IMG/VR virus record: IMGVR_UViG_3300025099_000091
Span: 1 to 30,447 of that record
DNA length: 30,447 nt
Direction: 5' to 3' (one strand)
Source: a virus
The position numbers and the translations under genes are program-made. Positions 11,727 through 30,065 of the stretch are shown piece after piece. The number at the start of each line of letters is the position of its first letter. The first letter of the stretch is position 1. Below the pieces are notes generated by a model, which searched no databases, was not told the DNA's origin, and saw only the letters and a list, made by a program, of their open reading frames with translations.

Positions 11727-14633
11727 TTACCTACTCTCCTGCATTGTAGCATACTGTTCAAAGGCATAATCAATTATAGGTTCACTTATCTTCCATGACA
11801 ACGACCATGTATCAGAAACTTCACCAAATTCTTGCCATGCATCTTTACCTAATTGTTTCCAATCATAGTCATTGTAAATTGGTTCTTCACCCTCTAGTGT
11901 TTTACCACCCATAAATGATGGTACAAAATCATTTTGACCACCTTGTTTCTCTACTGCTTTATTAAATGCTTGACCTGCATCTATAGCAAGTATTGCCAAT
12001 TCATATCCTACATAAGCTGCTAGTGCTGCAGGTGCTATCGCTGCTAGTCCTAACCTAGGTAGTAACCTAGCTATCCCTGTAGTTATTGCTAAATCACCTG
12101 GGTCTAATACAGTTCCTGCTGCACCAAACGCTTTACCTACAACCCTCTTAGCAGATTTAAAGATGCCATCTACAACCTCTGGTTGTGCATTAGCTAATTC
12201 TTTTACCTTGTTTAAACTGTCACTATCTACAAGGTCAGCAGCATCTTCTACTACAGTACTAGCAACATTAATTATTTCTTCTGGCATCAATGCTACTTTC
12301 TGTGGAGCAAATGGTCTATCAGCTGGTCTAATATAATTAGGGTCTCCAGGCTTTATTAAGTTACCATCTACATCTCTCATGTGTTGTCCATAATTTGTAT
12401 ATGTGTTCTGACCTAATGTTTCTGTAGTCATAATTCTTCTAGCGTCTGGAGAATACATCTCTTTATGAGCTAACCATGCGTTGTACTCACCTATTGGACC
12501 AAAGGTATTACCTCTCATACCATGTCCAAATGTGTCATGCACAGCTCTAAAGACATCATTCTCTAGCATTATTTTTCCATTTACATCTGTGTATCTTGAT
12601 ACAGCTAACATAGGGTTTCTTACATCAGCTTTAACAATGCCTTCTGGAGTAGCTAATGGATAACCAAAAGCTGTATCTGTAGCTAATACTTTTAAAGTTC
12701 CAGATTCCATATCAGCTATCATTTGTTGATGACCAGCTTTATTAGGTGTATAAGGGTCTACATCTACTAATTCAAACTTTATACCTGAATCTAACAATAC
12801 TTGATATTGCATATTAGTTTCCCCTATGAACTTCTTGTAATAAGGTATCGCAGTGTCATCAAACATAGGTAGTCTTTCAAATATATCTGCTGCTATTGCA
12901 CCCACTTCATCATTAAATACCATAGCTGGTTTAAACTGTGGGTCAGAGTATCCCATTATTTTGTGATAATCTTGTGCTATTTTTCTAATCCTATCACTGT
13001 GTACAGATAGGCTAACATCATCCATAACTCTTAATGTTCCTCTAGTTTGTGCTCTGTATCCACGACTACCATCACCCATATCTATAGTTCTTAAATCTTT
13101 AGGAACAAATAATTCTAAAGTACCATTTACAGGTATTCCTCTTTTTAAAATATTTGTAATCCCTACTTCTTTTAAAGCTCCATTTTCCATTACAATTAGT
13201 TTCAATCCTTGATTTTGTAAATCATTAACTAAACCTGCAGCAGGTCTTGCATGTAATCCTGCAGGGTCTGTTACTTCTAAAGTAAAAGGTTTATAATCAT
13301 CTATGTTTAAAGTTTCTACAGCAGGTACAACATTTGTTGGTGTGTCCACTACATTTGTAGGTGTATCTAATTCACTGACATTACCTTCCAAAATATTTTT
13401 TACATCAATTCTATTTTTAAAAAGTTGTGTTTCTAGTACTGGACCATTAAGATTTTCGTATATTGTAGTGCTTGGATACATATTAGTCATTCCACCTATT
13501 TGTACTTCAGGATAAATAACTGGTAACAAGTCATCAGAAGCACTTGAATTAGCTTCAATAAATTCTATTACCTTTTCTTTTGTTAGTTGTTTAACTGCTT
13601 CACGACTGCCATCTCCCAACTTTTCATAAGCATCCAAATCTTGGGGAGATATTCCAGCATTACTACGCATCTCATCAAAAACTTCAACACCTTTTTTTCT
13701 GGTTAACTCTTGCAAGAACTCTGTTAATTTCTCATCTATTAATTGCACAATAGGAGGAGCAGGTGTATTTCTTTGACCCATACCTGCGTATTGATAATAG
13801 GCATCATTATTAATTATGTTATCAGTCAAGTCATCCATTAATAAAAATACATTGTCTCCTAATATAAACTCTTTAGCTTTTTTATTAAATTCGTTTGTCC
13901 ACCAAGTGTGAAGTTCACGCAACTGACTTAGGTTTTCAGGTGGAGTATATAACCTGTTACCTTTAAAATTTTCTTGGGGTACAGCAATTCTATTCCAATC
14001 TATTTCTACATCAAGTTCATCTGGATGATAAAGTTCTCCTTCAGCATTTTGTAAAAATTCAATTATGTCTAAACCATGATTCATCAACACTCTCTGTTCA
14101 AGACTTTCAGGAAAGACATGTCTAACACCCAATGCAATTTCTTCTCTGTTTATATTTCTTGTAACACTATCAAGTATTTCTCCTGCAGCTTTTTTGTAAT
14201 TGTCACTTGATTCAGCAAAAAGAAAATCTCTTTCGTTGGATTCTTTTAAAGAATTTATAGCAAACTTAACATATTTTTTAAATTTATCTGCACCATCTCT
14301 TGTTGCTTTTTGTAATAATTTACTGACACCTTGACCTTGCATCCTAAAAACATCTTTACCTGAATCAATATTTAATTGAGCTGCATCTGTAAAAAATTCT
14401 GTAAGTCTTTTTTCTATTTCTTTTGTAGATAGTTTTGACCATGGTTCTGTAGAAAGTTTAGTCATTTCATTACCTAAATCATTATGGTGTAAATTATTAC
14501 CATACATCATTAAGCTCAAAGCCTTTTGTCTATATGTTTGTATTACTGAATTACCAGGTACAGTGTCTAATATACCTTCTAGAAGATTACTAAGAATCCT
14601 ATCTTTCTCTTTAATAATCTGTTGTTTGTTCAT
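11727..14633 (-). CDS. Multidomain virion protein with HPr-like segment and HDTFGH domain (968 aa)
   Basis: Four parts are visible. Residues 1-400: helical, charged, with no recognised domain. About 425-440: a linker with a duplicated DTPTNVV. About 453-515: a segment like HPr of the phosphotransferase system, with G-L-H-A-R-P-A-A placing His461 where HPr carries its phosphorylated histidine, then ITNILKRGIPVNGTLELFV in the place of the second helix and last strand; the HPr C-terminal helix is not evident. About 560-780: a domain with HDTFGH (His699, His704), NAWLAHKEMYSP and TTETLGQN, which I recall from other phage virion or polyvalent proteins without assigned activity. About 857-884: a hydrophobic, membrane-type segment. 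It contains no cysteine. It could be ejected and insert in the cell envelope. Domain identity of the HPr part is a motif-based inference. Confidence 0.7.
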   Translation of the reverse strand: MNKQQIIKEKDRILSNLLEGILDTVPGNSVIQTYRQKALSLMMYGNNLHHNDLGNEMTKLSTEPWSKLSTKEIEKRLTEFFTDAAQLNIDSGKDVFRMQGQGVSKLLQKATRDGADKFKKYVKFAINSLKESNERDFLFAESSDNYKKAAGEILDSVTRNINREEIALGVRHVFPESLEQRVLMNHGLDIIEFLQNAEGELYHPDELDVEIDWNRIAVPQENFKGNRLYTPPENLSQLRELHTWWTNEFNKKAKEFILGDNVFLLMDDLTDNIINNDAYYQYAGMGQRNTPAPPIVQLIDEKLTEFLQELTRKKGVEVFDEMRSNAGISPQDLDAYEKLGDGSREAVKQLTKEKVIEFIEANSSASDDLLPVIYPEVQIGGMTNMYPSTTIYENLNGPVLETQLFKNRIDVKNILEGNVSELDTPTNVVDTPTNVVPAVETLNIDDYKPFTLEVTDPAGLHARPAAGLVNDLQNQGLKLIVMENGALKEVGITNILKRGIPVNGTLELFVPKDLRTIDMGDGSRGYRAQTRGTLRVMDDVSLSVHSDRIRKIAQDYHKIMGYSDPQFKPAMVFNDEVGAIAADIFERLPMFDDTAIPYYKKFIGETNMQYQVLLDSGIKFELVDVDPYTPNKAGHQQMIADMESGTLKVLATDTAFGYPLATPEGIVKADVRNPMLAVSRYTDVNGKIMLENDVFRAVHDTFGHGMRGNTFGPIGEYNAWLAHKEMYSPDARRIMTTETLGQNTYTNYGQHMRDVDGNLIKPGDPNYIRPADRPFAPQKVALMPEEIINVASTVVEDAADLVDSDSLNKVKELANAQPEVVDGIFKSAKRVVGKAFGAAGTVLDPGDLAITTGIARLLPRLGLAAIAPAALAAYVGYELAILAIDAGQAFNKAVEKQGGQNDFVPSFMGGKTLEGEEPIYNDYDWKQLGKDAWQEFGEVSDTWSLSWKISEPIIDYAFEQYATMQESR

Positions 14634-28312: not shown

Positions 28313-28402
28313 TTATAATAACACAAAACGCCACACATGGTGGCGTTCTGTTCGTACAGTTGTCCAAACTGTTATGAAAAATATAACAATCCACAAAAAC
28401 AT
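28313..28402 (-). CDS. Possible hydrophobic microprotein (29 aa)
   Basis: The frame MFLWIVIFFITVWTTVRTER and nine more residues has one membrane-type segment (2-14) and a basic end, like a very small membrane peptide. Evidence against: the ribosome binding site is poor (AGAGAA, too close), and its last third is also the arm of a strong hairpin at 28327-28347. I list it as possible only. Confidence 0.22.
   Translation of the reverse strand: MFLWIVIFFITVWTTVRTERHHVWRFVLL
28327..28347 (-). terminator. Hairpin with U-rich tail before the basic-protein genes
   Basis: AACGCCAC (28327-28334) and GTGGCGTT (28340-28347) form a perfect 8-pair, GC-rich stem with a 5-base loop. On the minus strand it is followed by TTGTGTTATTAT, a broken U-run. 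It could end or attenuate the transcript of the zinc-ribbon microproteins, leaving a fraction to read into the packaging genes. Confidence 0.55.
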
Positions 28403-28472
28403 TTCTCTATTACACTGTACACCACATACTGTTCCTAGATGAAAAGTCTTCCTTTCTTATTATAAAATTGAA

Positions 28473-28524
28473 GCGTATCCTCATACGCAGCACCTGGATT
28501 TTCCAGGTACAAGTACTATAGTAC
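28473..28524. repeat. Three consecutive hairpins in a 265-base gap
   Basis: GCGTAT/ATACGC with a 4-base loop (28473-28488), ACCTGGA/TCCAGGT with a 3-base loop (28492-28508) and the perfect palindrome GTACTATAGTAC (28513-28524) follow each other with 3-4 base spacers. The gap 28291-28555 otherwise holds the hairpin at 28327 and only a doubtful microprotein frame. On the minus strand this array lies in the mRNA just after the second zinc-ribbon gene. Confidence 0.65.
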
Positions 28525-28555
28525 GCCCCCTGATTTAGTAGTGAAAAAAATTTTT

Positions 28556-28660
28556 TTATATATGCCCTCTGTTGCAGTCGTAACATAGATTAGTTTTGCC
28601 ATCAAGTAAAGTAACCTTGTAGCAGGATTCACAAGTGTATTGGTCCTTTGATTTGCTCAT
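28556..28660 (-). CDS. Zinc-ribbon microprotein (34 aa)
   Basis: It reads MSKSKDQYTCESCYKVTLLD and ends NLCYDCNRGHI. Cys10, Cys13, Cys26 and Cys29 make a C-x2-C-x12-C-x2-C zinc ribbon that fills almost the whole protein. The start overlaps the stop of the previous microprotein (ATGA), a tight coupling. It may bind nucleic acid or host transcription or packaging proteins. No family name can be given. The paired CxxC knuckles and the overlap make the gene credible despite its size. Confidence 0.75.
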   Translation of the reverse strand: MSKSKDQYTCESCYKVTLLDGKTNLCYDCNRGHI

Positions 28661-28859: not shown

Positions 28860-28868
28860 ATTATATCA
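28860..28868 (-). promoter_or_regulatory. Candidate promoter of the late minus-strand unit
   Basis: TGATATAAT on the minus strand is an extended -10 with perfect TATAAT, in AT-rich DNA between a terminator (28888-28953) and the first late gene. No convincing -35 is present at 16-18 bases, so an extended -10 or phage-modified polymerase is likely. The same 9-mer precedes the scaffold gene. Confidence 0.6.
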
Positions 28869-28887
28869 CATTAATTATTTAATAGAT

Positions 28888-28953
28888 AAAAAAAAGGGGG
28901 GTTACAAGGTGTAGGCGAAAGGAGGAAACTCCTACTTGTAATACGCAACCCCC
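28888..28953 (-). terminator. Complex intrinsic terminator or structured RNA end
   Basis: On the minus strand GGGGGTT and AACCCCC (28947-28953 with 28897-28903) close a stem directly followed by eight U (28888-28895). Inside, TTACAAG/CTTGTAA (28902-28908 with 28935-28941), GTAGG/CCTAC (28911-28915 with 28931-28935) and GGAG/CTCC around a 4-base loop (28921-28932) offer further, partly alternative stems. It ends a minus-strand transcript coming from the right and insulates the late promoter. No minus-strand gene is visible upstream of it. Confidence 0.75.
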
Positions 28954-29482
28954 TAAAGTAATACTACCATTAAATCTTGTGGTATGATAAGATACAAGTA
29001 ACAAGCAAGAGGTTCTTCCTGCTTTAAGAAAAGGACCTTTGACAATATACAGTCAATCAAGTGGATTAGCAGGACCATGGTAACTAGCGTAATAGGCTAT
29101 TACTTCACACATTTAAATGTTACTTATTTTAGTTCATTCTGGTTTTTGGGAGGGAGTGACACAGGGTTAGCTGTACTTACTCCTAGTTTTAATAGACTTA
29201 CTTTAAAGAGTACTACTACTTACAGTAACAAATGGTACACCCCAATATGTAGTACCACTATATCTTGTACCTACTTAACAGCATATATTTAGAGGGTACA
29301 TCAACTGTAACTATGGGTAGCAGATTGAACCCCCCCAATGTTATATGCCTATATTATTGGTGTACCCAGTATAAGAATAATTCAGTATGACTAAAACTGT
29401 TTAAACAATTACATAGGTATGAATAGATACTGACTGGATTTGTACCAGATTAATTTTAAACAAGAAGGGGGTAGCCCATTAA
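28954..29482. other. Non-coding control region
   Basis: I find no convincing gene in this stretch. It holds an inverted repeat TTGAC/GTCAA (29039-29056) whose left arm is a perfect TTGACA without a good -10, a GTTTAAAC site (29399-29406), several GGTAC/GTACC words around 29233-29365, and TTGAAC (29325-29330) with TATATT 19 bases on. A plus-strand frame at 29077-29292 has only a weak start and looks like chance. Since genes diverge on both sides, it likely holds early promoters and possibly an untranslated RNA that ends at 28888. Confidence 0.5.
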
Positions 29483-29585: not shown

Positions 29586-29675
29586 GGACTCATGCAAACA
29601 TATACAGACCTTCTAGACCAACCCACTACATATAGTGGTACTACATCTAGTAGGTCCTTAACAAGAGGAGACGAA

Positions 29676-30065
29676 ATGAAACTAAGTGGAATAATACTAA
29701 GTAGAGACCTATGCGAATTGAATGACCATGAGCTAGAAGTCCTATCTCAATCAGTTAGAGAACAGAAGGACGCGAGACAAAAAAGATTCATGGAGCAATT
29801 CCATGCTGGTATGCCAATAGCTATTACTACTGCTAGTGGTAAGACTTACCCAGCTTATATCTACAAGACTAAGAAGGCATCCATAGATTACAAATATACT
29901 GTGGATGAAGATTATGTAGAATCATATCAAGCTATGAGAACAGTTACAGAGAAAGATTTAAGAACATGGGTAGAGGTTGGATATATCAACCCAGCTTTCT
30001 TCTCATCTTTTGAAGGTAGCGATACATATAACTTTGATAACAAGCATGAGATACTAGGGTTATAA
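29676..30065 (+). CDS. Early-region protein of unknown function (129 aa)
   Basis: I use the ATG at 29676 (MKLSGIILSRDLCELNDHEL) because AGAGGAG lies 5-6 bases before it. The frame stays open upstream to 29511, so an N-terminally longer form is possible. After a helical, charged first half (VLSQSVREQKDARQKRFMEQ) there is a short beta section (GMPIAITTASGKTYPAYIYK) that resembles a small barrel for nucleic-acid or protein binding, then an acidic end. The layout is like small early proteins of many phages, but no family is recognised. It is the first supported gene on the plus strand, so it is probably expressed early. A hairpin and a palindrome follow it. Confidence 0.75.
   Translation: MKLSGIILSRDLCELNDHELEVLSQSVREQKDARQKRFMEQFHAGMPIAITTASGKTYPAYIYKTKKASIDYKYTVDEDYVESYQAMRTVTEKDLRTWVEVGYINPAFFSSFEGSDTYNFDNKHEILGL

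Follow-up and report, generated by a model that had tools for sequence, protein, structure and literature searches.

In a tailed marine phage fragment of 30.4 kb (an IMG/VR virus record, analysed over its whole length and called the window below), we identified a candidate free hairpin small RNA whose loop would block early ribosome-binding sites with strong Shine-Dalgarno (SD) sequences, favoring the late genes, a reading to which we give a probability of about one half (0.52). Its own promoter at 28969-28961 would drive leftward synthesis of a small phage RNA of ~67 nt, which would fold at once into a two-part hairpin displaying a rigidly conserved 15-nt loop, a putative copy of the 3' tail of 16S rRNA; in the window, the hairpin and the eight U that follow it would also terminate the RNA. 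The loop most likely pairs with early phage mRNAs at their strong ribosome-binding sites, which are of the GGAGGAAAC type, and perhaps with host mRNAs, so that ribosome loading on early mRNAs would be blocked and the late genes, with their weak SD sequences, would be favored. Sequence comparison among relatives established the hairpin, its pairing and covariation, its promoter and its free-standing copies (Table 1); preferential pairing of the loop with early sites is supported by calculation, and we infer the expression of the hairpin RNA, the repression, its timing and the choice of targets.

The genes for the large terminase and an SU10-type major capsid protein were both on the minus strand of the window, and the nearest isolates for terminase and capsid were distant, mostly phages of Actinobacteria. 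The early-type genes ran rightward from ~29.6 kb. Through the terminase, at least 80 relatives were gathered from IMG/VR. A virion-region protein of 968 amino acids (11727-14633, minus strand) had a short match to an HPr-like phosphorylation site, under the cut-off of Pfam.

Table 1. Positions in the window of the hairpin RNA, the divergent structured RNA and associated elements.
Feature	Position	Strand	Basis
Hairpin RNA, ~67 nt, predicted complete small RNA (~28954 to end of U tract)	28888..28954	-	Folding, stem covariation, fixed promoter spacing, separately terminated free-standing copies
Extended -10 promoter TGGTAGTAT of hairpin RNA	28961..28969	-	Motif in relatives
Outer stem, 5' arm GGGGGTT, pairs with 28896-28903	28947..28953	-	Sequence
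Inner stem, 5' arm GTAGG, pairs with CCTAC at 28915-28911	28931..28935	-	100% paired
15-nt loop AGUUUCCUCCUUUCG, nearly invariant, holds anti-SD sequence CCUCCUUUC	28916..28930	-	Comparison of copies, pairing with early ribosome-binding sites
Inner stem, 3' arm CCTAC	28911..28915	-	Covariation
Outer stem, 3' arm AACCCCCC	28896..28903	-	Sequence, relatives
U8 tract, putative terminator of hairpin RNA in the window's clade	28888..28895	-	Sequence; weaker in relatives
Next minus-strand promoter (TGTGATATAAT), directly past hairpin	28860..28870	-	Conserved in alignment
Extended -10 promoter TGGTATGAT of divergent structured RNA	28980..28988	+	TGnTAT[AG][AGC]T in relatives
Structured RNA, ~175 nt; stems P1, P3, P4, P5, kissing loop L4-L5, alternative stem P2	28995..29172	+	Covariation, wobble, single copy
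Predicted loop target: ribosome-binding site plus start codon (GAGGAGACGAAATG) of first early gene	29665..29678	+	Computed duplex

The left-facing hairpin with eight U that the initial annotation had reported at 28888-28953 was present on the minus strand, with a fold far beyond that of shuffled sequences (-22.7 kcal/mol, z -3.0 to -3.8; plus strand of the same locus, -27.5, z -4.4). The minus-strand RNA of 28954-28888 reads AGGGGGUUGCGUAUUACAAGUAGGAGUUUCCUCCUUUCGCCUACACCUUGUAACCCCCC-UUUUUUUU, AGGGGGUUGCGUAUUACAAGUAGGAGUUUCCUCCUUUCGCCUACACCUUGUAACCCCCC and then eight U. The outer stem varied among relatives (GGGGTT/AACCCC, GGGTTT/AAACCC, GGGTGA/TCACCC, GGGAGT/ACTCCC), and the inner stem, GUnnG/CnnAC, kept its pairing in all 20 distinct sequences (100%). 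Changes that compensate each other at the two variable positions of this stem (GTAGG/CCTAC, GTAAG/CTTAC, GTGGG/CCCAC, GTGAG/CTCAC and GTTGG/CCAAC, i.e., AG/CU, AA/UU, GG/CC, GA/UC and UG/CA) revealed the covariation in related phages that had been put forward as a check. A GGAG/CUCC stem with a 4-base loop (UUUC), pointed out earlier as an alternative fold, does exist and is the optimum fold of the single window sequence, but it showed 0 compensatory changes and was broken in 5 of the 20 sequences. Wobble pairs favored the minus strand (47 G.U vs. 27 A.C), a bias that is modest for the hairpin alone. Hairpin scans restricted to loops of ≤8 nt overlook a hairpin with a loop of 15 nt.

The loop AGUUUCCUCCUUUCG was the same in 80 of 83 copies, a set fetched in part with the loop as query; the same loop was also present in copies reached through the neighboring RNA or the terminase. 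It contains CCUCCUUUC, which we take to be the anti-SD tail of bacterial 16S rRNA. In the window, where a U-rich tract (U8) comes immediately after a G+C-rich stem, the hairpin resembles an intrinsic (Rho-independent) terminator, from which it differs in its conserved loop, the promoter at its foot and a U tract that is unconserved in relatives. U8 was confined to the window's clade, and in most relatives the 12 nt past the stem contained no T run longer than 3 or 4. Termination is therefore not the conserved feature, and a tract this weak (T3-T4) makes self-termination doubtful in most relatives.

A minus-strand extended -10 promoter of the form TG[GC]TA[GT][TG]AT occurred at 54 of 54 loci with the hairpin and at 6 of 57 without it (Fisher p = 4e-25, a value that ignores the relatedness of the loci), and in all 54 it stood 5-9 nt ahead of the first G of the stem. 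A looser form of the promoter was found at 69 of 75 loci, against 10.4 in shuffled sequences, and several of the misses carried an equivalent closer in. In one relative (L046), hairpin and promoter were jointly inverted relative to the terminase and late genes, and the neighboring plus-strand RNA was absent; L050, a record related to L046, was without a full match to the model of that RNA. Scanning with the hairpin pattern yielded at least 119 stretches, some of them in quite different phages, and in five other phages (L242, L252, L253, L258, and L268) the promoter came first, then the hairpin and a short spacer, and last an intrinsic terminator, perfect and with 7-9 T. This order fixes the transcribed strand and argues for a free-standing small RNA. 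The hairpin thus appears, from its sequence context, to be a whole transcript of its own rather than the end of a long antisense transcript. The untranslated minus-strand RNA proposed in the initial annotation very probably exists and ends at 28888, but it does not come in from the right as a long antisense transcript, given the conserved promoter at the hairpin foot and the plus-strand RNA beyond it; as the annotation had stated, the reading frames include no minus-strand gene to the right of 28953. No copy of the hairpin RNA or the plus-strand RNA was found in the isolated phages searched, and a search of the whole window against Rfam 15 returned nothing at the gathering threshold and nothing credible at permissive E-values (up to 10 for the hairpin).

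At the first early gene, whose leader sequence is GAGGAGACGAAAUG, the duplex computed for the ribosome-binding site was -12.4 kcal/mol with the loop vs. -8.9 with the 16S tail. Across six near-complete relatives, with gene starts set by a simple rule and early or late timing taken from gene direction only, loop pairing averaged -9.3 kcal/mol at early-direction sites vs. -6.7 at late-direction sites (p = 1e-5). The loop outdid the 16S tail by 1.2 kcal/mol at early sites with a clear SD sequence (p = 1e-4), with no preference at late sites, the tail used being a generic one that may differ from that of the host. The six genomes share homologous sets of early and late genes, and both p-values overstate the evidence because the loci are related. 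Of 400 loops with shuffled flanks and CCUCC kept, 15 equaled or beat the real loop on early sites; for the difference between early and late sites the number was 5, and for late sites it was 213. Since so few flank shuffles match it, the loop fits early sites such as GGAGGAAAC through its flanks and not through CCUCC alone.

Within this framework, the loop may tentatively be seen as a 16S-tail decoy in an RNA-only early-to-late switch, outcompeting the ribosome at strong early sites while late genes with weak SD sequences escape, and encoded back to back with a pseudoknotted RNA that is maybe its partner or counter-regulator. A near-invariant loop of 15 nt exceeds the needs of SD pairing, a hint that its partner might be a protein or the ribosome, and a protein partner or host targets are possible. 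The same small RNA might offer its loop, as a mimic of the 16S rRNA 3' tail, to a ribosome-associated protein (e.g., a maturation or initiation factor), or might mainly titrate host mRNAs for host shut-off instead of acting on phage early genes. The conservation of the loop across unrelated phages and the match of CCUCCUUUC to the anti-SD tail would suit both versions; the better fit of the real loop flanks than of shuffled flanks to early phage sites speaks against them, and we regard them as rather unlikely. A plain intrinsic terminator that halts stray minus-strand transcription ahead of the late operon would explain the G+C stem and the U8 of the window, yet it is improbable in view of the poor U tract of most relatives, an inner stem and loop kept far beyond the needs of a terminator, the promoter right at the hairpin foot, and the separate terminator carried by the free-standing copies.

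The position of the hairpin between two divergent promoters, and the fact that both strands fold about equally well as single sequences, would also be expected of a DNA element such as an operator, a cruciform or a replication origin. This is highly improbable, as the conserved loop is asymmetric and not a palindrome, G-U wobble is tolerated in the stems, and free-standing copies have a promoter and a terminator. The switchable attenuator between early and late regions, which had been suggested in the initial annotation, would act within a transcript entering the late genes; it agrees with a hairpin that stands ahead of the late operon and with the existence of the GGAG/CUCC fold. However, this fold is without covariation, leaving no pair of mutually exclusive conserved folds, and the hairpin unit is inverted in L046 and free-standing elsewhere. 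Moreover, a new conserved minus-strand promoter comes directly after the hairpin, so that transcription of the late genes does not have to pass through it, and we find the attenuator scarcely credible.

Small RNAs of staphylococci and listeriae such as LhrC aim unpaired UCCC motifs at SD sequences. The hairpin RNA is predicted to do the same with an unpaired motif of the UCCC type, but the known examples are chromosomal regulators, and no sequence relation between them and the phage RNA was found. Among the 6C/B11 RNAs of Actinobacteria, mycobacterial B11 blocks translation through C-rich loops that base-pair to ribosome-binding sites (PMC10470900). Like them, the phage RNA is a small hairpin with a C-containing loop predicted to pair with ribosome-binding sites, here favoring early phage sites. 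Unlike 6C/B11, with two stem-loops that each bear a C run, it is phage-borne and has a single hairpin with the loop AGUUUCCUCCUUUCG, and the 6C model of Rfam did not match it at the gathering score or at E-values up to 10.

The region to the right of the hairpin contains a second, previously undescribed phage RNA, judged from its covariation to be pseudoknotted, ~175 nt or somewhat longer and transcribed away from the hairpin, and perhaps the more interesting of the two. Covariation, plus-strand wobble, its own promoter, a single copy and the lack of an Rfam match mark it as a separate divergent RNA. Dozens of relatives shared positions 28995-29172 as conserved noncoding sequence, and a short pattern from this segment matched at least 120 viral stretches; in bacterial genomes, the same short core pattern gave 23 unrelated matches, within chance, and no homologue. 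In 38 diverse sequences, the stems and kissing loop had a covariation score of 0.375 (0.135 shuffled) and 163 double-change cells (51 for shuffles). The alternative stem P2, mutually exclusive with P1, was equally well supported, and triple covariation (U-A-A / C-G-G) was observed in the two mutually exclusive covarying stems. Non-Watson-Crick cells, in minus-strand letters, numbered 84 for A.C, which is G.U on the plus strand, and 4 for G.T; the functional RNA is therefore the plus strand, and on the 84:4 count a minus-strand antisense RNA to the right of the hairpin was rejected. In 63 of 102 relatives, where 0.4 was expected by shuffling, the motif TGnTAT[AG][AGC]T lay at a near-fixed distance ahead of the RNA 5' end. 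The RNA occurred once per genome, and in one clade a terminator-like hairpin came after it, with a separate promoter and gene beyond.

The put RNA of phage HK022 is ~70 nt long, with two stem-loops, and is present in two copies (PMC9378689). The plus-strand RNA is likewise a structured phage RNA right after an early promoter, but it measures ~175 nt, is pseudoknotted with a kissing loop, and is present in one copy. Its size, its copy number and the terminator-like hairpin that follows it in one clade argue against put-like antitermination in cis. A minor idea is that the hairpin loop might serve as a sponge for GGGAGGGAG of the plus-strand RNA, but the association was only partial (50/37 vs. 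7/21) and the loop was kept in relatives without that segment.

Other elements were also seen. On the minus strand at 28870-28822, the promoter TGTGATATAAT was followed by a short hairpin RNA again with CCTCC and a T-rich end, and relatives carried GCCCTCCTTTCTTTG. Further along that strand, a hairpin with a variable stem and a loop of the GCAA or UUCG type (28806-28785) stood just ahead of a tiny zinc-ribbon-like ORF without an SD sequence (28763-28659). A conserved noncoding minus-strand stretch at 28340-28570 held tandem hairpins (CCTGGAAAATCCAGG and GCGTATGAGGATACGC) with a terminator at its end, and it directly adjoined the plus-strand RNA in clades L087, L099, and L120. Repeated GGTAC...TATAGTGGTAC motifs at 29226-29290 and 29610-29650 are possible operator repeats. 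Where the 175-nt RNA was absent, as in L046 (positions 500-640), L240, and L243, other conserved RNA-like sequence (AGGACATCAGGCGTACAAAAGCTRCTGATAC...AAAGGCGAAAC) came after the hairpin RNA, with a T8 end in L046. In a diverged clade (L088, L133, and L134), a tRNA-like sequence ending in ACTCCTACCACCTCCA or similar lay directly past the plus-strand RNA.

The signature GUnnG-AGUUUCCUCCUUUCG-CnnAC can be used for locating similar RNAs in other phages. If the proposed reading is true, it yields direct and easily tested predictions, namely compensatory mutations in the loop and the ribosome-binding sites. The hairpin would then be a minimal anti-SD RNA that parts early from late translation without a protein, and abundant uncultured marine phages would carry, within a single control region, two RNA families that have gone unrecognised.
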